Source: a virus. From it: a DNA stretch of 64,000 bases. Below the pieces are notes generated by a model that saw only the letters and a program-made list of their open reading frames with translations, ran no database searches and had not been told where the DNA came from. The stretch spans positions 27,511 through 91,510 of IMG/VR virus record IMGVR_UViG_3300045588_000033. The stretch is one strand, 5' to 3'. Positions 161 through 64,000 of the stretch are shown piece by piece. Within the stretch, counting starts at the first letter, position 1. Each line of letters begins with the position of its first letter. The position numbers were made by a program, and so were the translations under genes.

Positions 161-405
161 TGGCGATGTGCGATGATTATTCGTTATTAGTTTGGGATAA
201 ACAATGCGAGTTTGGTAAAGCAACATTTAAATACATGCAGCAATTGCAGTTCGGCAATGCATGCTGCGAGACACTAGATAAATTAAAAAATAAGCGTAGA
301 GCTTTAGAAATTCTTAACTGCTACGATACTAGAGATATAGAAAATAATACTACTATATACAACACTTTAACTTACCAACAGATTAAAAACTTATTAAATT
401 CTTAA
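160..405 (+). CDS. small hypothetical protein in the fibre module
   Basis: An 81-residue protein with four cysteines and a charged middle part, translationally coupled to the gene before it (TAATG) and followed after 2 bases by the next ATG. No family is recognised. The sequence looks mainly helical, unlike the beta-rich fibre proteins around it, so it could be an adaptor or assembly factor, but that rests on position only. Confidence 0.55.
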   Translation: MAMCDDYSLLVWDKQCEFGKATFKYMQQLQFGNACCETLDKLKNKRRALEILNCYDTRDIENNTTIYNTLTYQQIKNLLNS

Positions 406-9057: not shown

Positions 9058-12000
9058 TGGAAAGACACATAAATACATACCAAGGATTAAATAAAGATAC
9101 TGCTTATGATAGTATACAATCTGAATTATATATTGATGCCAAAGATATTAGGATAACTACTACTAATGGAGAATCTATGGGAGCCTTTACTAACATTAAA
9201 GGTAACCAAGAAGCTTTTACTATTCCTAATGCCTACGGAGCAGGTCTACCTTTTGGACCATGGGCAGCTGTAGGAATCCCTCAAATAATAGGATACACTA
9301 CTATAAGAAATAGGATAGTATTATTTGTAGCAGATGATTCAGAGGCAAACGGTTGGATTTATGTAGTTGAATATAATACAGCTACCAGAGAAATACTTCC
9401 TGGATTTCCAGTATTAAAATATTATAGTCCAATCTTAAACTTTAGTAAGAAATGGCCAATAGAAGCATTAGGTCTATATGAATCTAACTGCATTCAAAAA
9501 GTATATTGGACAGATTACAATAATTACTTTAGAAGTATTAATTTAGAAGATGCTAACTTACTTACATTCCCAGCTTCTTCTGTAGATATTTTTCCAGACA
9601 TTACTTATACTCAACCGCTTTTAAAAGTAATAGCAGGTGGGGGAATAGGTGTGTATGCGGGTGAGTACCAAGTAGCTTATAGATTAATTACATCTGATGG
9701 TAAAGAAACTTTAGTTTCTCCTCCAAGTAATTTAGTACATGTTGTTTCCGATTCGGAAACTACTCAATCTGCTTTTTACAACGGAGATTTAAATGCTACA
9801 ATAGATACAGGTAAAAGTTTAAGTTTCCAAGTAGATACAAGTAACTACGGAGATTTTAATGAAATAGAATTTATAGTAATATATCATTCTTCTCAAGTAT
9901 CATCGCCTGTAGTTAATAGTATAGAAAAGATAAGTATAAATAATCAAACTACTATTAGTTTTACTTATACAGGAAATGAAGGAGCTATAGTACCTATTGA
10001 ATTATTAACATTTACAGCTAAGAATAATCCATTTAAAACTCCTAAAACAATTACTCCTAAAGATAGTTCTTTAGTAATTGCTAATATTAAAAGTTCTACT
10101 GTATCTATAGCAAGTTTATTAGGGCCTAATGAAACTTTTGATTCTAGAACTAATAGATTCTTAAATGACGGAGTAACTTTGCCACATCCACTAACAGGTA
10201 ATCCAGAACAAATAGATGAAGCTAAAACTAAGAATGCTTTTAATGTATCTGTGGATCCTTCTTATAGTGCTAAACCATCTATAGGATTTAACTCAGATGC
10301 GCATTGGGATACTGAATGGCAAACTGCAAAGCAATTTAAATATAAAATTGATGGAGCTACTTTAGGAGGAGATGGTCCTAATATTTCTTATGAATTTCAT
10401 TTAGAAGCTTTTACTTTAGACTCCGCTGTCCCAGGATTCTCAGAAGGAATTCCTACTGTTCCAAATACTCCAGATTTTGTATTAACTCATAATCTTAATG
10501 ACGGTTATGGTACTTACGAGAATACTACTTACCCTAATTTTGCCTCTCCGTTTTTATCGGGGCTAATGCGGGGTTATAAACGGGGGGAAACTTATCGTTT
10601 TGGTATAGTACTGTATACTACTAAAGGAGAAGCTACTTTTGTAGAATACATTGGCGACATCAAGTTTCCAGATATTTCAGAAAGAAACAGCACTGAAACT
10701 ATTCCAGGGACTGGGATAAACTATTGGCCATTATCCTTATCTCCTGCGGATACGGCACAACCACGTACTGTCGGATACTCATTAGGAATAAAATTTAATA
10801 TAGATTTTTCTAGTTGTCCTTTATTAGAATCTCAAATAGAAAGTTATCAAATAGTAAGAGTACAAAGACAAGATGCCGATAAGCGCAGATATTCTCAAGG
10901 TTTAGTAAAAGGATTTTATTTTGCTCCTATTTTAGAAGGTGATGCAGAAGATTTTAATTTACAAATAAATGGCAGCAGCAATGCCTTACATTTATATCCT
11001 TATTATCCAGTAGATAGTGGGACTAATTTATCTAATGCTACTTTTGCCACTCTAGAAGATCAAGAATACGATCCTTCTCCTTATACTCCTGTATATGCAG
11101 ATTATAAAGTTAAAGGACAATACTTAGGGTTTTATTCCCCAGATTTATCATTTAAATTTGGAGATAGTAATACCGCAATGACAGCTTTAAGCAACAACCC
11201 TTGTATGCTAGTAACAGGAGCTTACTACGACTACATGAACTCTTATATTCCAATAGGTGGAAGAGATTTTTCTGCACAAGGTTTGGGACAACATTGTTTT
11301 GATCAAAGATTAACTTCCAGAAGTACTTATCCAACTAGTTTTAATAGTATAGAAAATATTAAACAATTTGCAGATTTAACTTATATGCAAATGCCTGATA
11401 CTGCTAGCTATGAAAACAGTGTTACTTCTGATTACGGAGGATCTTATATGCGCAATTATTACGCAATAGATGATTACAATAAAAAACCTGATGTAAATTT
11501 AAATAAACCACAGGATGGTGCTTCTAATACAGATGTGCCTACTATAAATAAAGCTGGAACAAGTATTATTGGAAGAATTAAAAGGATTACTATAGACCCT
11601 TTAATAGGTACATCCGTAACTCCTTCTGCTTTCGATTATTTTAAAGCCCCTTATACAAATTATATACACGTCAAGACTATAACTTCAGGTGCGCCTAATA
11701 TCGGTATATCAGATTCTACTTTTCCTATTATAGATTATGTACTTCCTAAAAGTGAGGTGTACGGAGGATATAATCAAAGTGCGTTAGAAACTAATATCTT
11801 CATAGGAGCTTCACCTGTAATAGCTAAAACAAATCTTAATCCTAAAGTATTTGGTGGAGATATTTTTGTAAACATGTTTACGCTACAGACACAGACTGTT
11901 GATTTTAATACAGACTTTTATGCTGATAATAAATATCACCAAGATAATACTGAGACACAAGCTTACCCAGTAGAAACACAATTAAATTTAGAATTAGCTG

Positions 12001-41065: not shown

Positions 41066-41683
41066 TTAATTGAATTCCCCACTTGGCTCTAGTTTGCTAT
41101 CGGTATAAGCAAATTCTTTAAGCATATTATTGTCTAACTTTTCCACATCTCTATCTATAATAGGCCAAACTTCTTGGTCATATAAATACGCAGGAGCTGT
41201 AGGAGAAGATAATCTATCTTCCCAACTATCTTTTAGAGACTCAGATTTATTTAATATCAATGGCAGCGTAAATGCTTTACCAGAAAAGAAGTGATTACTA
41301 AGAATTAATTTCTTAGCAACAGCACTTATCTCTGAATATTTGCCATTTAATATTAAAGTATAATCGGGTAACATTTCTTCGGACACTGCATACACCATAA
41401 TAAGATAATTATTCTTCTCATAGGAATCCCTATAATTAGGAAATGCTCTCATTGTGGTGTAAAATGTTTCAAAATCTACATCTCGGTAATTCTTAATCAA
41501 TAAAAATATACAATTTTCTCTATACAAAGCAACGTTCTCATCAAATAAATAAGAGTTTATAAATCTTAGAGTAAACATTTGTTTACCTAAAATAGTTTTA
41601 ACATTGCAAGTAAATAGTGCTTTAGGAATTTCTAATAATGGAAACAAAAAGGTAGAAGTTTTAGTATATTTAACTAAACTCAT
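41066..41683 (-). CDS. hypothetical protein coupled to the nuclease gene
   Basis: 205 residues, mixed alpha/beta, aromatic-rich (FFSGKAFTLPLILN, DQEVWPIIDRD), with no signal peptide and no recognised motif. Its ATG overlaps the stop of the PD-(D/E)XK gene by 4 bases. Position suggests a role in replication or recombination, but this is a guess from context. Confidence 0.5.
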   Translation of the reverse strand: MSLVKYTKTSTFLFPLLEIPKALFTCNVKTILGKQMFTLRFINSYLFDENVALYRENCIFLLIKNYRDVDFETFYTTMRAFPNYRDSYEKNNYLIMVYAVSEEMLPDYTLILNGKYSEISAVAKKLILSNHFFSGKAFTLPLILNKSESLKDSWEDRLSSPTAPAYLYDQEVWPIIDRDVEKLDNNMLKEFAYTDSKLEPSGEFN

Positions 41684-42693
41684 ACTTCAATATTTAGTTT
41701 GCCTCCATTTTTATAATACTCCATGGGAAATTTCCAAGCATTATTATCTAATGCATATTGCAGTCTGTCTAAAGCATCAATAAAACCTTCTAGTTTTCTG
41801 CCGTTGCTTAAAGTCCCACCGTGAAATCCTATCTCCATTACGTCTGCATCTACTTCAAAAATCATAGGATCATTGTGCAAATTAGTTTCAACTACAATAT
41901 ACAGAAAATCTGCAACTGTGTAACCGTTATCCCATAATTCTTTTACTTTAGGATGTTGTAGTAAGCCCCAAGAGTACACAGTAGCTTGGAAATCATAGCG
42001 GTAAGTAAAGAATTCATATTGAAACCCAGTAATAGGTTTACCCGTAGTTTTAAAGTCAATCGGAGTTATAATTTTATCAGTGTGATTTACACAAACTCTG
42101 TCTAACTCTCCTTTTAAATCAAATCCTTTAAAGTTAAATTCTATAATAAACTTATCCCAGAATTCTACGTTTTTATCATGTTTTCTATCTACATACGGCT
42201 TAGTAAATTCATCAGACTTAAGAGCCATTACACAACTTAAAGCTTTAGCATACTCAGTTTCTGTAATAGTAGTCTTGCCTTGAGTAGTCTTTAATAGCTC
42301 AAAATAATCTTTACCGTCTACTAGAATTTTATCTATTCTAGTATCATCTTTCCAATTATTATAATAGCCTACATTGTTGCAATGTTTAAGAATTACATTT
42401 CTATCTACACTTACAGTTCCTCCTAATGCTGCCATCTCTGCAAAAACTCCATCTACGATAGCCTTTACTGCCTCACTACACTTAGACTCATCAGGTATTT
42501 TAACAAACTTCTCCTCAAACTCGTCCTTAGATCCTACCAACATTATATCTACAACACTGCCAAACACAAAATGAGGAGCGATAGACTGCTCCCCATTTTC
42601 TTGTTTTTCTTTTGCTTTTAGATATTCTTTAGGGCTTGTAAGTATCTTTTTAAGGATACTTTGATTCAACTTTTTAATATCTCTATACTCCAT
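41680..42693 (-). CDS. PD-(D/E)XK nuclease (RecE/Cas4-like exonuclease)
   Basis: 337 residues. The N-terminus has the LNQSILKKILTSPKEYL start and HFVFGSVVDIML pattern (conserved helix before the core). The catalytic core is DLKGELDRV, followed after a loop by PIDFKTTGKP (Asp and D-x-K). Further on, QATVYSWGL is the Q-x-x-x-Y motif of RecB/Cas4/RecE-type nucleases. It probably resects DNA ends in phage recombination with the neighbouring RusA-like resolvase, Sak4-like ATPase and SSB. Confidence 0.75.
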   Translation of the reverse strand: MEYRDIKKLNQSILKKILTSPKEYLKAKEKQENGEQSIAPHFVFGSVVDIMLVGSKDEFEEKFVKIPDESKCSEAVKAIVDGVFAEMAALGGTVSVDRNVILKHCNNVGYYNNWKDDTRIDKILVDGKDYFELLKTTQGKTTITETEYAKALSCVMALKSDEFTKPYVDRKHDKNVEFWDKFIIEFNFKGFDLKGELDRVCVNHTDKIITPIDFKTTGKPITGFQYEFFTYRYDFQATVYSWGLLQHPKVKELWDNGYTVADFLYIVVETNLHNDPMIFEVDADVMEIGFHGGTLSNGRKLEGFIDALDRLQYALDNNAWKFPMEYYKNGGKLNIEV

Positions 42694-45631: not shown

Positions 45632-46381
45632 CTAATTGGTTTTTAATTTTATTTCAATATTAAAATTTGTTTTTCCAGATACTATCATCTTAGAGAAAAA
45701 TTCCCATGCATTTTTTACATTATTAAAAGCAAATTCGCCTTCAGAATAAAAATTAAAATGTTTACCCAAATAATTTGGATTTACATCGAATTTTTTTATA
45801 GAAGTTTTGCTATTAGAATATCTTAATCTTATTCCGTCTTTACTTATACCCTTAATATAACCTCCAGTTAATCTTTGTACGTCTTTTTTAGTAATATTTA
45901 ATTTTTCAGAAGCTTCTTCTTTGTCTTTAAAAGACTTTAAATAATTTCCAAAATAATCATATACTTCGACTGTACAAAAATCAAATTTAGTTTTATACTT
46001 TCCAGCCGCTCTACCATCAATAATTGATTTTGATAATTTTTGCTTACTATATATTGATAAAGTTTTAAGAACAGGATCTAATTGTAAATTAAAATTAGGT
46101 TTTAATGCATCTATGTAATATTTTTCTCTTAAAATTCTAGATTCTGGTGAACAAAATTCTAATATTTCGTATTTAAAACTGTTTATACCGTATTTATTAA
46201 AAGCTTTTTGCATAAAATCATTTGAATGTTTGTTATTCAAAAGTTTTTGCCTATGTTCTAATAATCTATCGTATAAAGTTTTAGAACTACCTACGTATGT
46301 TCTAGAATTACATGTTATCATGTATATCCCAGATTTTTGTCTTAGTTCTTTTGCACTCAATTGAAGAATTGATGTTTTCAT
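45632..46381 (-). CDS. GIY-YIG homing endonuclease (intron-encoded)
   Basis: 249 residues from the ATG at 46381; a TTG two codons upstream also opens the frame but is less likely. The GIY-YIG core is GIYMITCNSRTYVGSS followed by LYDRLLEHR, with Glu in the LREKYYIDALKP segment. The C-terminal half has NUMOD-like DNA-binding repeats (VEVYDYFGNYLKSF, FDVNPNYLGKHF). It would cut intronless alleles of the ATPase gene and promote intron spread. The stop codon TAG directly precedes the P1 guide sequence. Confidence 0.85.
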   Translation of the reverse strand: MKTSILQLSAKELRQKSGIYMITCNSRTYVGSSKTLYDRLLEHRQKLLNNKHSNDFMQKAFNKYGINSFKYEILEFCSPESRILREKYYIDALKPNFNLQLDPVLKTLSIYSKQKLSKSIIDGRAAGKYKTKFDFCTVEVYDYFGNYLKSFKDKEEASEKLNITKKDVQRLTGGYIKGISKDGIRLRYSNSKTSIKKFDVNPNYLGKHFNFYSEGEFAFNNVKNAWEFFSKMIVSGKTNFNIEIKLKTN

Positions 46382-46650: not shown

Positions 46651-47832
46651 TTAAAGTTCTAATTTTATTACTTTCCCAGGAAGGGCTTCATTCATACTTG
46701 ATTGTTCAGACAATACCCATAATACTTTCTTTGAAGGCTTTTTATTAGTATAACATTCACCATCAGTGAAATATATTAAACTAGTAAATTGTGTATTTTT
46801 TTCAAAATAATCTAATACGGGGTCAAATTCTGTCCCACCTCTACCAGATATTTTTAATTCAAACTTGCCTTTGTAATCTTCAATACTGTGAATTTCAGTA
46901 TCACATTGAACAATAGTAATCTCTACACCTGCTTTGTAAATATGATATATTTCATTCATAAATTCTCCAAGCTCTTGAGTACTAACAGATCCAGAGGTAT
47001 CAATAGCTAATAGCATCTTTTGTCTCATTTTAATTTTAAGACCAGGATTACCTTCGTATCTTTTATTCTCTTTTCTGCGTATCTTCTTAGTAAATACCTT
47101 TGTGCTAATTCCAGTAAATCTTCTAATATATCCCTTCCAATCAAATTTTGGAGGTAATATTACATCTAATTGAATTAGATCGTTCATCTCACCAGGAACA
47201 ATACCTTGCTTCTTTAAAGTCTGTTCTTTAGCGGTGCCTAAGAGCCTTTGCGTTTGCTTGTCTATTAGCTTTTGCTCTGCCTCAGATAAATCTTCGAACT
47301 CGTCCCATGTGCTATGGTCAGGCAGACCTTCACCGTCACCGTCCATTTGGTCACATAATTTATCAAATGCATCACTGCCACTAGTACCAGTTTGATCTTT
47401 TTTATCCTTAGCTTGCTTAAGCTTGTCATAGTAATATCTACAACCTGCTTTTCTATCTAAATTTAATTCTGGATATTTGTCAATATCAATGCCTCCTGTA
47501 GGTAACCATTCAGGAATAATATATTGATTAATCTCCATATCCATAGCTACATTAGCTAATTGTCTATCACTAAATTTAAATACAGCACTCAAATGGCCAA
47601 AAGCAATATGCAAAAGCTCATGTTTTAGAAGACCTAATCTATGGTCTTCCGATAACTCTTCCCAAAAAGTAGGATTAATGACTAGCTGATAATTTATTCC
47701 TTGTTTACCAACGCCAGCCGTGGGTACTCTTGTGTACCATAATTTATTTAATAAAATGAGAAAGAACCCGTAATAGGGCTCTTTCATCATTAAATCTTTA
47801 CTAGTTTTACTTAATGTGTCCGCTCTATTCAT
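46651..47832 (-). CDS. metallopeptidase-like / VWA protein (DUF2201 type)
   Basis: 393 residues. The N-terminal domain has a zincin-type motif LLKHELLHIAFGH (H-E-x-x-H) in the DUF2201_N pattern. After an acidic linker (about 150-190), the C-terminal domain has LLAIDTSGSVS, a D-x-S-x-S MIDAS of a von Willebrand A-like fold, and later GRGGTEFDPVLDY and FTDGE. VWA proteins of this kind are the usual partners of MoxR AAA+ ATPases, and the ATPase gene follows directly. Their joint role in a phage is not known; modification of host or phage complexes is plausible. It overlaps the primase gene by 8 bases. Confidence 0.75.
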   Translation of the reverse strand: MNRADTLSKTSKDLMMKEPYYGFFLILLNKLWYTRVPTAGVGKQGINYQLVINPTFWEELSEDHRLGLLKHELLHIAFGHLSAVFKFSDRQLANVAMDMEINQYIIPEWLPTGGIDIDKYPELNLDRKAGCRYYYDKLKQAKDKKDQTGTSGSDAFDKLCDQMDGDGEGLPDHSTWDEFEDLSEAEQKLIDKQTQRLLGTAKEQTLKKQGIVPGEMNDLIQLDVILPPKFDWKGYIRRFTGISTKVFTKKIRRKENKRYEGNPGLKIKMRQKMLLAIDTSGSVSTQELGEFMNEIYHIYKAGVEITIVQCDTEIHSIEDYKGKFELKISGRGGTEFDPVLDYFEKNTQFTSLIYFTDGECYTNKKPSKKVLWVLSEQSSMNEALPGKVIKLEL

Positions 47833-50174: not shown

Positions 50175-50849
50175 TTAAATTGAATAATATTCTCTTATGA
50201 CTGCGTTTACCTCTACTAGATCATTATCTACTAGAGCTTCTTCAAACATTTCAATAGGAGTTTTGCACGTATCTGTACCAGAATTTAAGGTTCTAAATAC
50301 GTGACGATTTGGTGCCCCAGGTGTCTTTACAATTTCTGCATAAAACACAATAGAACTAAAGCTTTCAGGCACAAAGCGCTCAAGCATCCGTCCCTGTACA
50401 CCGATTCTTTCTGTAGAGAAACCACCATCATCATAGTGAGTTTCTGGATGAGCAAATAAATATACAATGATATCTTCTCTTAATTTATCATTAATGATAT
50501 TAATTAAGTCATATTGATTAGCGGCAAATTTGCCATACTTATCAAAACCTTTTTCTGCTCGAAAAGAAGGATTCATTACTGCATCTGTCATTATACGACT
50601 CCATGTGTCGATGATAACAGTTTTGATTTTTTTATTACCATGTGCCCGCTTTAAGGTACCAATTACTACTTGCACATCAGAAGTCTTGACATAATTGTCA
50701 TTCTCTTCATTGTACTTTAAGTTAAATTGTTTAAACGGAAGCGCTTTTTGATCCGTATTAATGATAATTGTTTCCTCTGGATTTAGGTTCCGTAATGAGG
50801 TAGATTTTCCTGTGCCGCTTTTTCCAACGACAAACACGAGTTGACCCAT
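50175..50849 (-). CDS. RecA-fold ATPase, Sak4/AAA_24-like
   Basis: 224 residues. Walker A is FVVGKSGTGKSTSL at the very N-terminus; Walker B is VKTVIIDTWSR-like (KTVIIDTWSRIM), and a later HPETHYDDGG segment corresponds to the loop before sensor residues. Short RecA-core ATPases with this layout (Sak4, AAA_24) act in phage single-strand annealing with an SSB. Gene order with SSB-like, exonuclease and resolvase genes fits. A TATCTTTA box lies 31 bases upstream on the minus strand, a weak promoter candidate. Confidence 0.75.
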   Translation of the reverse strand: MGQLVFVVGKSGTGKSTSLRNLNPEETIIINTDQKALPFKQFNLKYNEENDNYVKTSDVQVVIGTLKRAHGNKKIKTVIIDTWSRIMTDAVMNPSFRAEKGFDKYGKFAANQYDLINIINDKLREDIIVYLFAHPETHYDDGGFSTERIGVQGRMLERFVPESFSSIVFYAEIVKTPGAPNRHVFRTLNSGTDTCKTPIEMFEEALVDNDLVEVNAVIREYYSI

Positions 50850-60347: not shown

Positions 60348-60775
60348 TACTTTTCTTTTACAATTTCTATTAATTTCTTTAAACAAGCAAGTTCTGCTTC
60401 TTCGTAAGTATTATGTTTATCAAAATATTTAGGAATATGATAAGGAACTATTTTATTCTGTCTTGAATCATGTCTATTTTCCTCTAAAATTACATTACTT
60501 CCAAAAAATTCAAAACCTTTATTTATTACATGATGTAAATTATAATTATCCCTAAACCATCTAAAGCATTGTGTGAATGTTGGTGCAGTAAAACAATCGT
60601 TATTAAAAACTTTAACAATGTTTGAATTGTTACAAGGTTTAGATGTCCATTTTTTGTAAGTTTCTGGAGCTATCTGTAAGTCTTTTGTTTCGGCAAACCA
60701 AGCAATACAAGGTTCATCAAATCCAAGTTCTTTAAGCTCTAATGCTTCTGTGTAATCTACAAATTCTTTTTCCAT
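60347..60775 (-). CDS. conserved hypothetical phage protein (LKELGFDEPC type)
   Basis: 142 residues. It opens EFVDYTEALELKELGFDEPCIAWF and continues with PTFTQCFRWFRDNYNLHHVI, ending in a YEEAELACLKKLIEIVKE helix. I recall this layout from many Bacteroidota phage and prophage genomes, without known function. Coupled to both neighbours by TAATG overlaps. Confidence 0.6.
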   Translation of the reverse strand: MEKEFVDYTEALELKELGFDEPCIAWFAETKDLQIAPETYKKWTSKPCNNSNIVKVFNNDCFTAPTFTQCFRWFRDNYNLHHVINKGFEFFGSNVILEENRHDSRQNKIVPYHIPKYFDKHNTYEEAELACLKKLIEIVKEK

Positions 60776-61044
60776 TACTTTTGTTTTAATTGTTCTCCTG
60801 TTAGTATAAAATACAGATTCTGTAACTGGTGTACATATCTAAATAATTCTATGTCAGGTGCTATACCTATATCATCTTCATGTCCCATAATACCAATTGA
60901 GAAGTCATCGCAATATGCCAATAAGAAGTCTTTATGCTTTAACTTATAGTCTACCCCAAAACAATCTTCTGAGTTGTATACTATTTTCTCAAATCCAAAA
61001 CTCAAGAGTAACTCTTCAGTTAAGGGAATATTTTCTTGTTCCAT
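60775..61044 (-). CDS. conserved hypothetical phage protein
   Basis: 89 residues: N-terminal LTEELLLSFGFEKIVYN, C-terminal FRYVHQLQNLYFILTGEQL. The latter motif is frequent in small proteins of Flavobacterium phages. Start preceded by the recurrent junction (CAGAATAAG-ATG). No function known. Confidence 0.55.
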   Translation of the reverse strand: MEQENIPLTEELLLSFGFEKIVYNSEDCFGVDYKLKHKDFLLAYCDDFSIGIMGHEDDIGIAPDIELFRYVHQLQNLYFILTGEQLKQK

Positions 61045-61045
61045 C

Positions 61046-61246
61046 TTATTCTGATTTAATTTTTTCGTTGTAATATTGTTCTGCTTTATTTTCTTTGCTT
61101 TTATCCCATTGGTCGGTCACAAATCCTTTATTAAAAGCATCAATTATCTGTTGCTTCTCCATTGCTTTGGCATGTTCATATTCCGATATTGTAATATTTC
61201 CCTTGTGTTCGTACATTTTATTGTACAACCATTCTATTGCTGTCAT
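61046..61246 (-). CDS. AVEWL-family small protein (copy 1)
   Basis: 66 residues; the start is the Met of MTAIEWLYNKMYEH, because this aligns with the starts of the paralogs (MEQTAVEWL). Continues YEHAKAMEKQQIIDAFNKG and ends AEQYYNEKIKSE. Same domain as copies at 61788, 62011, 62859 and the C-terminus at 63079. All-helical, acidic; function unknown. Confidence 0.55.
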   Translation of the reverse strand: MTAIEWLYNKMYEHKGNITISEYEHAKAMEKQQIIDAFNKGFVTDQWDKSKENKAEQYYNEKIKSE

Positions 61247-61253
61247 GTTGTCT

Positions 61254-61433
61254 TTATTCAGATTCATTTGTACAAGCTAAAACAGCCATGCCTAACACGA
61301 TACCTATAAAAGATGATATAAGCTTACTTGCAACAGTTTGGTGATCAAATCCCCCCATTATGTACATAGAACATATATGTACTGCTAAAAATGTAACTAA
61401 GAAAGCTACTATATTTTTTGTTAATCTATTCAT
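61254..61433 (-). CDS. small membrane protein (two TM segments)
   Basis: 59 residues starting at the ATG after the recurrent junction. TM helices at about residues 8-27 (VAFLVTFLAVHICSMYI) and 36-54 (ASKLISSFIGIVLGMAVLAC). Ends TNESE, again the junction-type C-terminus. Function unknown. Confidence 0.5.
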   Translation of the reverse strand: MNRLTKNIVAFLVTFLAVHICSMYIMGGFDHQTVASKLISSFIGIVLGMAVLACTNESE

Positions 61434-61434
61434 C

Positions 61435-61572
61435 TTATTCTGATTTAGGTGGAAAATATGTTCCACATTCATTACATAAAAACTCTTCTACTGGTTTTTC
61501 TTTTTTACTCCAATCTAAATTAGCATGAATGTTTTCACACTCACCACAATTAGGACAACATTTTGCTTCCAT
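61435..61572 (-). CDS. 45-residue zinc-ribbon protein
   Basis: ATG at 61572, stop at 61435. Two knuckles, CCPNCGECEN and LCNECGTYF, give a four-cysteine (C-x2-C ... C-x2-C) zinc ribbon. It ends PPKSE at the recurrent junction. Small zinc ribbons of this type may bind nucleic acid or RNA polymerase. It fits exactly between its neighbours, one base from each. Confidence 0.6.
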   Translation of the reverse strand: MEAKCCPNCGECENIHANLDWSKKEKPVEEFLCNECGTYFPPKSE

Positions 61573-61573
61573 T

Positions 61574-61786
61574 TTATTCTGTTTTAAAAGTTTGTTGTTT
61601 ATCTGCTAAATATTTTTCATGACATCCTTCAATTAGAATGCATACACCTATGCCGATTCCAAAAATACAAGCATATACAATTCCTTGTTTACCTTCATCT
61701 TTATCTAATCTAAAAGATAATATAAGTCCTATACATAATCCTAACATTATTTCACTTACCAAAAATAAAAATTCATAATTTTTCAT
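61574..61786 (-). CDS. small membrane protein
   Basis: 70 residues from the ATG after the recurrent junction. TM segments at about residues 6-24 (LFLVSEIMLGLCIGLILSF) and 36-52 (GIVYACIFGIGIGVCILIE); ends QQTFKTE. Function unknown. Confidence 0.5.
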   Translation of the reverse strand: MKNYEFLFLVSEIMLGLCIGLILSFRLDKDEGKQGIVYACIFGIGIGVCILIEGCHEKYLADKQQTFKTE

Positions 61787-61787
61787 C

Positions 61788-62009
61788 TTATTCTGATTTA
61801 AAGGTTTCTTCCCAATGTGATTCAAATGTTTGCCAATTATCTTCAGCAATACCCTTACCCTCAAACCTACCTGCTTGATGTGCAGTGTTCCATGTTGTAA
61901 CTATCTGCTCCTTTTCCATTTCTTTGACTTGTTTAAATACTTCTGATAAACTAAATTCTTTATCATCGTAAATAATTTCTTCTAACCACTCTACTGCTGT
62001 TTGTTTCAT
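61788..62009 (-). CDS. AVEWL-family small protein (copy 2)
   Basis: 73 residues: MKQTAVEWLEEIIYDD, then EVFKQVKEMEKEQIVTTW and a Trp-containing end with TFKSE. Clear paralog of the neighbouring copies; the N-terminal seven residues and the KEMEKEQI helix are the conserved parts. Function unknown. Confidence 0.6.
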   Translation of the reverse strand: MKQTAVEWLEEIIYDDKEFSLSEVFKQVKEMEKEQIVTTWNTAHQAGRFEGKGIAEDNWQTFESHWEETFKSE

Positions 62010-62010
62010 G

Positions 62011-62226
62011 TTACTCTGTTTTAAATGTTTCGTTATAATATTGTTCTGCTAATTTTTTATTGGTATCACTAAAAGATTGTGAATCGAATTCAGACTGCCC
62101 ATTTATATGCGAAATAATTATTTGTTGCTCAAACATTTGTTTAGATTTTTCAATAGCGTGCAAATCTTTAAGCCCAATGCTTTCTTTTAATTCATTTACT
62201 AACCATTCCACTGCTGTTTGTTCCAT
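62011..62226 (-). CDS. AVEWL-family small protein (copy 3)
   Basis: 71 residues: MEQTAVEWLVNELKE, then FEQQIIISHINGQ and AEQYYNETFKTE. Upstream, the junction sequence is present although here it is not part of a coding region. Function unknown. Confidence 0.6.
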   Translation of the reverse strand: MEQTAVEWLVNELKESIGLKDLHAIEKSKQMFEQQIIISHINGQSEFDSQSFSDTNKKLAEQYYNETFKTE

Positions 62227-62227
62227 G

Positions 62228-62247
62228 TTATTTTGTTTTAAAGGTTA
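62228..62247. repeat. direct repeat, right end in transcription sense (20 bp)
   Basis: TAACCTTTAAAACAAAATAA on the minus strand, identical to 62633-62652. The two copies lie 405 bases apart and bracket the NUMOD-like ORF, whose stop codon is inside this copy. Confidence 0.8.
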
Positions 62248-62631
62248 GTTAGCATATTTCCATTCAAATCCACCTGCTGTACCTTTTTCTTGTTTTAAAA
62301 TAGTAGACATGTTATTTTTTGTAACTCCATTTTTTTCACAAGCGGTTATAATATTTTCATAACTACATATATAAGAGCCATTATAATATTTAGAGACAGG
62401 TTTACAAAATGATTTACTTGGAATCACAGTTACATCACCAATTCTATTAACAATTCTAGCTCCATCAGAATATCTCCTAAATTGTTTATTTATTGATGTT
62501 AAAGTATGTCCAATAATTGTACTGTTGATAGAACCTCTTGGTGCTTTTAATTGTATTTCTAATTCTCTAACTGTATTTACATCAAATACTTCTAATAAGT
62601 GACCTTCAAGGTCATACATTGCTATTTTCAT
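62245..62631 (-). CDS. NUMOD-like DNA-binding protein without nuclease domain
   Basis: 128 residues with two NUMOD-type segments: MKIAMYDLEGHLLEVFD with HTLTSINKQFRRY, and VSKYYNGSYICSYENIITACE with MSTILKQEKGTAGGFEWKY. These are the DNA-binding repeats of HNH and GIY-YIG homing endonucleases; the nuclease domain is absent. It is either a remnant of a free-standing endonuclease or a stand-alone DNA binder. It is exactly flanked by two perfect 20-bp direct repeats. Confidence 0.65.
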   Translation of the reverse strand: MKIAMYDLEGHLLEVFDVNTVRELEIQLKAPRGSINSTIIGHTLTSINKQFRRYSDGARIVNRIGDVTVIPSKSFCKPVSKYYNGSYICSYENIITACEKNGVTKNNMSTILKQEKGTAGGFEWKYAN

Positions 62632-62632
62632 T

Positions 62633-62652
62633 TTATTTTGTTTTAAAGGTTA
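62633..62652. repeat. direct repeat, left end in transcription sense (20 bp)
   Basis: Identical to 62228-62247. Here it encodes the C-terminus (LTFKTK-stop) of the coiled-coil gene and the junction before the NUMOD-like start. Confidence 0.8.
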
Positions 62653-62857
62653 ATTCTTCTGTTAAAATAGCGTTCATTTCTTTTTGTGATTCAAGTTCGG
62701 CTTCAAGTTGAATGATTCTATCAATATTAAATTCTTTGATTCTTTTTTCATACACTTGAATTTGTGCTTGTTTAGATACTATTATTCGTTTTAAAGCAAA
62801 AAATTGAATTTTCAAGCCTTCATAAGTTGCGTGGGGTTTTGCATTTTCTAATTCCAT
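62633..62857 (-). CDS. small coiled-coil protein
   Basis: 74 residues; residues about 20-70 form an uninterrupted heptad-like helix (IIVSKQAQIQVYEKRIKEF, then IQLEAELESQKEMNAIL). Ends TFKTK at the recurrent junction. Function unknown. Confidence 0.5.
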   Translation of the reverse strand: MELENAKPHATYEGLKIQFFALKRIIVSKQAQIQVYEKRIKEFNIDRIIQLEAELESQKEMNAILTEELTFKTK

Positions 62858-62858
62858 A

Positions 62859-63077
62859 TTATTTTGATTTAAAATCCTTATTCATGTGTTTAATCAAATA
62901 AAATTCACAATTCCAATCCTTATGTTTGTTCCCATGCCACCCTGCTCTAAAATCATTTTTTCTTTGCTCATCTTCCATTTCTTTGGCTTGTTTAAACAAC
63001 TCTTTAAACTTTTGATTAGTTATTAATTGACCACCTTTGATTTCACCCGCAAACCATTCTACTGCTGTTTGTTCCAT
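62859..63077 (-). CDS. AVEWL-family small protein (copy 4)
   Basis: 72 residues, counted from the ATG one base after the previous stop; the longer frame upstream is not used by the paralogs. MEQTAVEWFAGEIKGG, then FKQAKEMEDEQRKNDFRAGW, ending DFKSK. Function unknown. Confidence 0.55.
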   Translation of the reverse strand: MEQTAVEWFAGEIKGGQLITNQKFKELFKQAKEMEDEQRKNDFRAGWHGNKHKDWNCEFYLIKHMNKDFKSK

Positions 63078-63078
63078 C

Positions 63079-63540
63079 TTATTTTTTATTAAATTTTTCG
63101 TTGTAGTATTGTTCTGATGTATTATATTCACCATCCATACCATCAAGATATGCTGTACGTATTATTTCCTTCTCCATTTCTTTGGCTTGTTCATATACTT
63201 TACTTATTTTATCCCATTCGCTTGGGTACAATTCAAGAATGTTATCTAATTCTTCATATAATAATTCTACTGCTGTTTGTTCCAATCCTTTCGTTTCAAT
63301 TTCTTTGCCGTTAAAACCATTATACCACCCACGCATATATTCCGAGTGATTTTGTAGTTTTTCTAATTCTAAAAGATTAATTAATTCTTGCTTAAAACTA
63401 ACCAATCCAATCTTCATTCCATGATGCCTACTCGTTGAAGTTTCATCCCTAACTTTTGATGCTTCAATTCTACACGCTTGAGCAATTTCTATTTGCTCAT
63501 CTATTTTTTCAATTGCTTTTTGTATTACTGTCTTTTCCAT
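63079..63540 (-). CDS. coiled-coil protein fused to an AVEWL-family domain (copy 5)
   Basis: 153 residues. The N-terminal half is helical (IQKAIEKIDEQIEIAQACRI) with a YMRGWYNGF segment. From about residue 86 the sequence is the small-paralog domain: LEQTAVELLYEELDN, YEQAKEMEKEIIRTAYLDG, SEQYYNEKF. This is the only copy fused to an extra N-terminal domain. Function unknown. Confidence 0.6.
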   Translation of the reverse strand: MEKTVIQKAIEKIDEQIEIAQACRIEASKVRDETSTSRHHGMKIGLVSFKQELINLLELEKLQNHSEYMRGWYNGFNGKEIETKGLEQTAVELLYEELDNILELYPSEWDKISKVYEQAKEMEKEIIRTAYLDGMDGEYNTSEQYYNEKFNKK

Positions 63541-63541
63541 C

Positions 63542-63769
63542 TTATTCTGGTTTAGCGTATTGAAGATATTGATAAAATTGATGCTGCTCCCTGGTTAAAT
63601 TTTCATTGTTCCAGTCTTTTGGTTCTACAAAATTATATTGTTTTTTCAAAAATATAATTTGTTTTTCCGAATCTTTTTGTAGTTTCTCTTTTAAAAGAAA
63701 ATACCCTACCGCCCCATAAGATACCATAAGGGCGGTAAGAATAAAATTGATTATTGTTTTATTTGACAT
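63542..63769 (-). CDS. small single-TM protein
   Basis: 75 residues from the ATG that follows the upstream stop by one base; a Met eight codons earlier would lie inside the upstream gene. One N-terminal membrane helix (TIINFILTALMVSYGAVGYFLL) is followed by a charged helical tail. Topology would place the C-terminus in the periplasm or cytoplasm; undecided. Confidence 0.5.
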   Translation of the reverse strand: MSNKTIINFILTALMVSYGAVGYFLLKEKLQKDSEKQIIFLKKQYNFVEPKDWNNENLTREQHQFYQYLQYAKPE

Positions 63770-63770
63770 A

Positions 63771-64000
63771 TTATTTCTTTTTAAATTGTTCAAACCATTG
63801 CTTTGTTGTATCTCCTAAATTAGAAGTTTTATTAGAAGATAAATCATATCTATATTGTTGTAAAAATTTTATAACTTCTTCCTCACTATACATTTTTTCT
63901 TGTTGGTATTTAGCGCCTTGAATAAAAATCTGTCTGTCGTCTTCATTAGAATCTTCCATTGGATTGTAAGAGTCATTAATAAGCCTTGGATACAACCTCA
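63771..64000 (-). CDS. small hypothetical protein (possibly partial at window edge)
   Basis: The frame runs off the right edge without a stop; inside the window a TTG at 63995 or an ATG at 63959 could start it. Acidic and helical (DSNEDDRQIFIQGAKYQQ, MYSEEEVIKFLQQYRYD), ending QWFEQFKKK. Such short proteins are common in early regions of flavobacterial phages. Confidence 0.5.
   Translation of the reverse strand, partial: RLYPRLINDSYNPMEDSNEDDRQIFIQGAKYQQEKMYSEEEVIKFLQQYRYDLSSNKTSNLGDTTKQWFEQFKKK

Follow-up and report, generated by a model that had tools for sequence, protein, structure and literature searches.

At the right end of a 64,000-nucleotide stretch of viral DNA (IMG/VR record IMGVR_UViG_3300045588_000033; this stretch, bases 27511-91510 of a linear viral contig of 91,510 bases, is referred to here as the window), the minus strand carries a block of small, tightly packed genes whose starts are preceded by copies of a short sequence, the patch, with the consensus (T)AACCTTTAAATCAGAATAAG immediately followed by ATG. 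On the strength of sequence comparisons, we consider it likely that the patch is at once a leader that stops translation in three frames and restarts it, and a homology patch for the exchange of gene cassettes. As mRNA, it would end the upstream gene in any frame by means of three TAA triplets, one per frame, and would offer the next AUG, one base past the last stop and with A at −3, −6, −12 and −13, a context favouring initiation on Bacteroidota ribosomes. At the level of DNA, it would supply a short common homology through which small cassettes are inserted, deleted or swapped between phages, most likely via single-strand annealing by phage proteins (Sak4-like and RecE-like here, ERF and an exonuclease in some relatives). 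Both neighbours would stay expressible after an exchange because the patch stops all frames and carries the start context.

Variants of TTTAAAWCARARTAA-N-ATG occur at nine small-gene starts of the block. The motif named in the original prediction was recovered at all nine of its starts (61044, 61433, 61572, 61786, 62009, 62226, 62631, 62857 and 63540, all minus strand) as AAA(T/A/C)CA(G/A)A(A/G)TAA-N-ATG, with 0 mismatches to AAAWCAGARTAANATG in five and 1 mismatch in four. Exact matches to AAAWCARARTAANATG number eight in the whole contig, every one of them inside the block; at a tolerance of 1 mismatch, 63540 and a single site outside the block also match, and the reversed control pattern gives 3 matches. 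The nine copies are as follows.

61042..61060, minus strand: patch copy ..TTAAATCAGAATAAG before ATG, preceding gene 60775-61044
61431..61449, minus strand: patch copy AAATCAGAATAAG before ATG, preceding gene 61254-61433; the upstream protein ends in PPKSE
61570..61588, minus strand: patch copy TTTAAAACAGAATAAA before ATG, preceding the zinc-ribbon-like gene 61435-61572
61784..61804, minus strand: patch copy with the full consensus, ACCTTTAAATCAGAATAAG before ATG, preceding gene 61574-61786
62007..62026, minus strand: patch copy TTTAAAACAGAGTAAC before ATG, preceding gene 61788-62009 of the TAVEWL family (see below)
62224..62247, minus strand: patch copy TAACCTTTAAAACAAAATAAC before ATG, non-coding, past the upstream stop, preceding TAVEWL gene 62011-62226
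62629..62652, minus strand: patch copy TAACCTTTAAAACAAAATAAA before ATG, with 20 bases identical to the copy at 62226, preceding gene 62245-62631
62855..62873, minus strand: patch copy TTTAAATCAAAATAAT before ATG, preceding gene 62633-62857
63538..63553, minus strand: patch copy AAACCAGAATAAG before ATG, preceding gene 63079-63540

The motif is not absent from other phages: when viral contigs were scanned twice for the consensus, each scan returned at least 120 stretches, with the patch recurring in arrays. In 25 long records, all 72 of 72 copies lie on a single strand per record, often at a spacing of 100-500 bp, and the reversed pattern has 0 matches; the exact 21-base patch has zero copies in 84,980 bacterial/archaeal genomes. 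The pattern ACCTTTAAATCAGAATAA, in which the start codon is not included, has 132 distinct copies, and in 131 of these ATG follows at −1 to +2 nt, although this figure is somewhat favoured by the fact that part of the loci came from a scan whose pattern held ATG. The arrangement is TAA-N-ATG in 120 of them, with N mostly G, and a core one base shorter adjoins ATG in 150 of 151 copies, subject to the same bias. At 10,105 open reading frame starts in loci retrieved by other means than the patch, we found 30 perfect 12-base cores and 19 with one mismatch, where no perfect core was expected; thus, the patch copies are an exact population and not the tail of a loose start preference. The open-access literature yielded no description of the patch, subscription papers lying outside the scope of that search.

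The stops used by the upstream genes are distributed over the patch. Across 245 distinct junctions, with an upstream gene counted when at least 30 codons are open, the final TAA is used in 154, the TAA within TTTAAA in 32 and the TAA of TAACC in 17. These three positions lie in three different frames, each used by different genes, and hence (T)AACCTTTAAATCAGAATAAG carries a stop in every frame. At 62226, the upstream gene 62245-62631 stops earlier, yet 20 bases (TAACCTTTAAAACAAAATAA) are kept, the same bases that stand before 62631, and the gene lies between two patch copies that form a perfect direct repeat of 20 bases.

The usual carrier of the patch is a gene family that we named TAVEWL after its N-terminus, whose proteins often end in EQYYNETFKSE. 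About five genes of the window are TAVEWL paralogues, so the description of the block's products as unrelated proteins needs correction for these; it stands for the remaining block genes, which are unrelated to TAVEWL.

61788..62009, minus strand: TAVEWL gene, protein end EETFKSE
62011..62226, minus strand: TAVEWL gene, protein end YYNETFKTE; PF22266/DUF6953-like (E 0.003)
62859..63078, minus strand: TAVEWL gene, protein end KDFKSK
61046..61246, minus strand: TAVEWL-type gene, beginning MTAIEWL and ending YYNEKIKSE, its own start being a degenerate junction
63079-63540, minus strand: gene with a TAVEWL-like 3' part

The likeness of 62011-62226, the one TAVEWL gene scanned, to PF22266/DUF6953 falls below the curated cut-off. 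In a TAVEWL sample fetched by protein similarity, without use of the patch, 33 of 127 genes end in FKSE. The serine codon of these ends is TCA in 32 of 33 cases versus 18 of 67 in gene bodies (Fisher p = 6e-12), with GAA in 32/33 versus 230/322 and AAA in 33/33 versus 163/202. ATG adjoins all 33 FKSE ends, compared to 18 of the 94 other TAVEWL genes that have it at 1 nt. Because the patch is used in three frames, its synonymous codons are non-random and a non-coding copy is retained at 62226, the constraint acts on the nucleotide sequence, as had been proposed from the 62226 copy, and conservation only as codons is ruled out. An inheritance at the codon level, in which TAVEWL genes were duplicated and the patch merely encodes their conserved protein end YYNETFKSE, is favoured by the paralogues in the window and by the TAVEWL 3' ends that make up 96 of the 245 copies. 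It is largely refuted by the three-frame reading and by the occurrence of the patch as a non-coding leader behind unrelated genes, and the TCA choice, with synonymous variants being rare, also speaks against it; we regard it as very improbable. The protein end WFEQFKKK with its stop, where the spacing to ATG is variable, provides the contrast of a junction that does look codon-level.

The latter sequence, ACAATTTAAAAAGAAATAA, had been taken up as a third candidate patch and was rejected, its spacing to ATG being variable and its stop always the same codon. In the window, a second recurrent junction sequence encoding the same protein end, GAACAATTTAAAAAGAAATAA, lies at 63766-63789 (minus strand) and occurs in at least 120 viral-contig stretches. 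The distance from it to the following ATG is not constant, which suggests that what is conserved is a C-terminal peptide and not a nucleotide patch.

A second connector does share the properties of the patch. This sister patch, (CTTT/CT)AAACAACAAGAACA immediately followed by ATGA, has its left part in common with the first patch, stops three frames (offsets +1, −15 and −19 from ATG), has A at −3, −6, −12 and −13, and adjoins ATG in 74 of 114 exact copies. In different phages, 22 gene families are found behind both patches, among them homologues of window genes 61574-61786 (preceded by the patch in L111 and by the sister patch in L424 and L430) and 60775-61044. The three-frame stop, the sister patch and TAVEWL as the usual carrier all go beyond the original prediction. 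The same 22 families are served by patches whose right halves, TCAGAATAAG and CAACAAGAACA, are quite unlike each other, which is difficult to reconcile with the patch being the binding site of a regulator, either a phage protein or a small RNA, as has been considered for the start-associated sequence (SAS) of cluster K mycobacteriophages. Such a site could be expected to be exact, non-palindromic, of one orientation and restricted to arrays of small accessory genes, as the patch is; an Rfam scan of 57-64 kb, on the other side, returned no RNA family, and we hold this explanation to be improbable.

Genes on the two sides of a junction are unlinked. Among junction pairs from different contigs, the shared gene is the upstream one alone in 967 cases and the downstream one alone in 177, with both genes shared in 17, and the ends of homology alignments accumulate at the patch edges. 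When both flanking genes are at most 130 amino acids long and 70-97% identical, homology spans the junction in 0 of 19 patch pairs, versus 117 of 234 ordinary junctions when all controls are taken and 47 of 91 when only those within 1 kb of a patch are taken (p = 1e-5). The 434 genes behind the two patches form 200 clusters, of which 147 have a single member. In functional kind, the patch resembles a start-associated sequence, being repeated, near starts, in one orientation and before many gene families, and it also resembles a boundary sequence, since homology starts and ends at it and relatives have empty and occupied sites. Homologues of the zinc-ribbon-like gene 61435-61572, for example, stand behind the patch in L009, L177 and L358 as well, with different upstream genes.

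Close relatives differ by whole genes, from patch to patch and exact to the base. L205 and L515 are identical up to ..ATACTACAACGAAACCTTTAAATCAGAATAAGATGA, where L515 carries two additional TAVEWL genes that end with this same sequence, and in the comparisons L114/L479 and L479/L114 the additional genes, three or four of them, lie between sister-patch copies. Indels with both ends at a patch were found in 5 pairs, about 3 of them distinct, versus about 0.3 expected. The proposal that the motif serves as a homology patch for gene shuffling is strongly supported by these data, since the differences in gene content run precisely from motif to motif. Near 320-335 (plus strand) of L135, the first patch and its ATG lead directly into the sister patch and its ATG, with a tiny MKQQEQ frame in between, and the arrangement has the appearance of a cassette that is empty or nested. 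Some patches in L035 and L097 are followed by two-codon frames (MK), possibly the remains of deleted cassettes.

Base-exact indels could also be left by a dedicated enzyme, a site-specific recombinase or homing endonuclease, that recognizes the patch and moves cassettes. HNH endonuclease families are among the patch-following genes, and in the window one cassette gene between two identical patches is of a related type:

62245..62631, minus strand: HNH/NUMOD-like cassette gene, its C-terminal part matching phrog_20162 (HNH endonuclease family, E 3.5e-6)

The product, which had no match in a Pfam scan, is probably a DNA-binding NUMOD-like protein; it may be a relative of homing endonucleases that lost its nuclease part. 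Recognition by such an enzyme appears highly unlikely to us, given that two different patches behave alike, that the cassettes have no enzyme gene in common, that the patch lacks the symmetry of an att site and that annealing of direct repeats gives the same footprints.

For cassette exchange by annealing, the window encodes two candidate proteins.

50175..50849, minus strand: Sak4-like single-strand annealing protein, candidate recombinase (phrog_2872, 4e-65; PF13479)
41680..42693, minus strand: exonuclease VIII/RecE-like PD-(D/E)XK exonuclease, candidate partner (phrog_412, 1.6e-25; PF12684)

The recombinase responsible is probably a phage annealing protein, a class that tolerates sequence divergence (PMC5928155). 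In L075 and L176, genes for an ERF-type annealing protein (PF04404) and a phage exonuclease (phrog_5715) follow patch-type junctions, and the recombination genes may on this account travel as cassettes themselves. TAVEWL-borne patch copies offer about 36 bp of identity.

Several points weigh against exchange at the patch. Outside TAVEWL genes, patch identity extends over 20-24 nt, which is under the minimum homology of ∼30 bp quoted for Red and RecA (PMC2327257). The junction pairs are not independent of one another, and the patch itself served to retrieve most of the loci. Among 220 indels, a single end falls at a patch in 12, versus 8.6 expected at random, which is not significant, and a TAVEWL protein tree, itself weak, gave no signal when compared with patch state. 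No close relative of the window itself was found, so that the case for exchange there draws on analogy and on the direct repeat of 20 nt that flanks 62245-62631. Selection may keep the patch for exchange.

The bases next to the start codon bear on the role of the patch in translation. Ribosome profiling and reporters in Flavobacterium johnsoniae identified A at −3, −6, −12 and −13 as positive determinants of initiation (PMC6847099). Patch copies have A at these positions in 95-97% of cases, and the 1-nt spacing between stop and ATG is the spacing that holds A at −3 and −6. A Shine-Dalgarno sequence is absent from the patch, as is expected for Bacteroidota. Together, the position before ATG and the four Flavobacterium adenines indirectly support a translation-coupling signal, as originally predicted, and the patch may well promote strong initiation or coupling. 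RNA structure is slightly weaker at this phage's own patch starts (mean −1.9 kcal/mol at 7 starts versus −3.0 kcal/mol at 58 other starts), a difference that is not decisive. Shuffled sequences contain more sigma-70-like sites than 57-64 kb does, and a promoter reading of the block was rejected on these grounds.

The same features would suit a patch that is a translation-initiation leader only, a strong Bacteroidota start context being selected and gene turnover being incidental. Its position before ATG is near-perfect, and the same contigs have many other A-rich starts in which these adenines are present. However, T at −10, C at −9 and G at −7, which have no known role in initiation, are kept exactly, as the excess of perfect cores over one-mismatch cores indicates; most genes in the same genome do without the patch, and neighbours are unlinked exactly at it. 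We therefore consider a leader-only function unlikely, though less so than the other alternatives, and favour the combination of leader and exchange site.

TAVEWL is abundant in viral contigs, which contain at least 600 matches to it, with 538 confirmed relatives among the matches listed. In the bacterial/archaeal genomes, relatives occur in only 3 contigs, all in metagenome-assembled genomes (MAGs), whose titles name Bacteroidetes, Sphingobacteriales and plain 'bacterium'; patch matches in these contigs are at one mismatch and chance-like. The MAG titles and base composition indicate, and do no more than indicate, a Bacteroidota host for the patch phages. Neither a TAVEWL homologue nor a convincing patch turned up in INPHARED phage records. 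Two weak INPHARED matches belong to huge phages of metagenomic origin; one of them, LR756502, is without the patch.

Elsewhere in the window, the plus strand carries the terminase, portal and major head protein genes, while the minus strand carries those for DNA polymerase, primase, helicases, endonuclease VII and the Sak4-like and exonuclease VIII-like proteins. The right end of the window coincides with the contig end, and the small-gene array may extend beyond it. Two further minus-strand genes lie in the replication region:

45632-46381, minus strand: homing-endonuclease-like gene among the replication genes (phrog_314, 1.3e-15; weak GIY-YIG match)
46651-47832, minus strand: VWA-like and putative metallopeptidase protein (PF09967/PF13203), in the replication block

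In integrons, small genes that lack promoters are exchanged, each as a unit, at a standard site. The patch resembles them in that small genes are swapped as units at such a site; unlike integrons, it has no integrase-attC anatomy and is a 20-nt linear sequence with stop and start signals. In lambdoid phages, for which Clark et al. reportedly proposed boundary sequences in 2001, each boundary, as far as is known, has its own sequence. Unlike these, one patch consensus is common to hundreds of unrelated junctions and to many phages, such that any cassette fits anywhere. Short conserved gene-boundary sequences have been proposed, as cited in PMC3029335, to act as homologous recombination sites for mosaicism, and the patch is similar in being short, conserved, located at gene boundaries and a probable site of modular exchange. 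The Kozak-like context of F. johnsoniae (PMC6847099) has the same four adenines but is loose and applies to all genes, whereas the patch is an exact 20-nt sequence before a subset of genes.

A close likeness is also seen to the cluster K mycobacteriophage SAS, a short, asymmetric, exact sequence present in many copies a few bases before ATG (PMC3203893). Like the patch, SAS has one orientation, precedes small non-structural genes of many families, sometimes contains the upstream stop, is absent or nearly so from host genomes and is suspected of a role in initiation (PMC3203893). The two are nevertheless unrelated in sequence: the SAS family sequence is GGGATAGGAGCCC, and SAS has a Shine-Dalgarno core, which the patch lacks. 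The patch further differs in adjoining ATG, stopping three frames, having a sister patch and spanning very diverse uncultivated phages, and in that gene exchange at its edges has been shown.

Phage mosaicism is usually ascribed to illegitimate recombination because boundary sequences shared between junctions are seldom seen. The patch is such a sequence; it recurs in many phages, and exchange at it leaves frames safe and genes startable, which makes the boundary-sequence model directly testable. More tentatively, and with rather less than even confidence, we suggest that at least two interchangeable connectors, in each of which a stop in three frames is combined with a strong start, have been selected across distantly related uncultivated Bacteroidota phages and make small accessory genes plug-and-play. 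The patch is also a marker for small accessory cassettes in metagenomes, which are candidate host-takeover or anti-defence genes, and it suggests a compact start leader for expression work in Flavobacterium.

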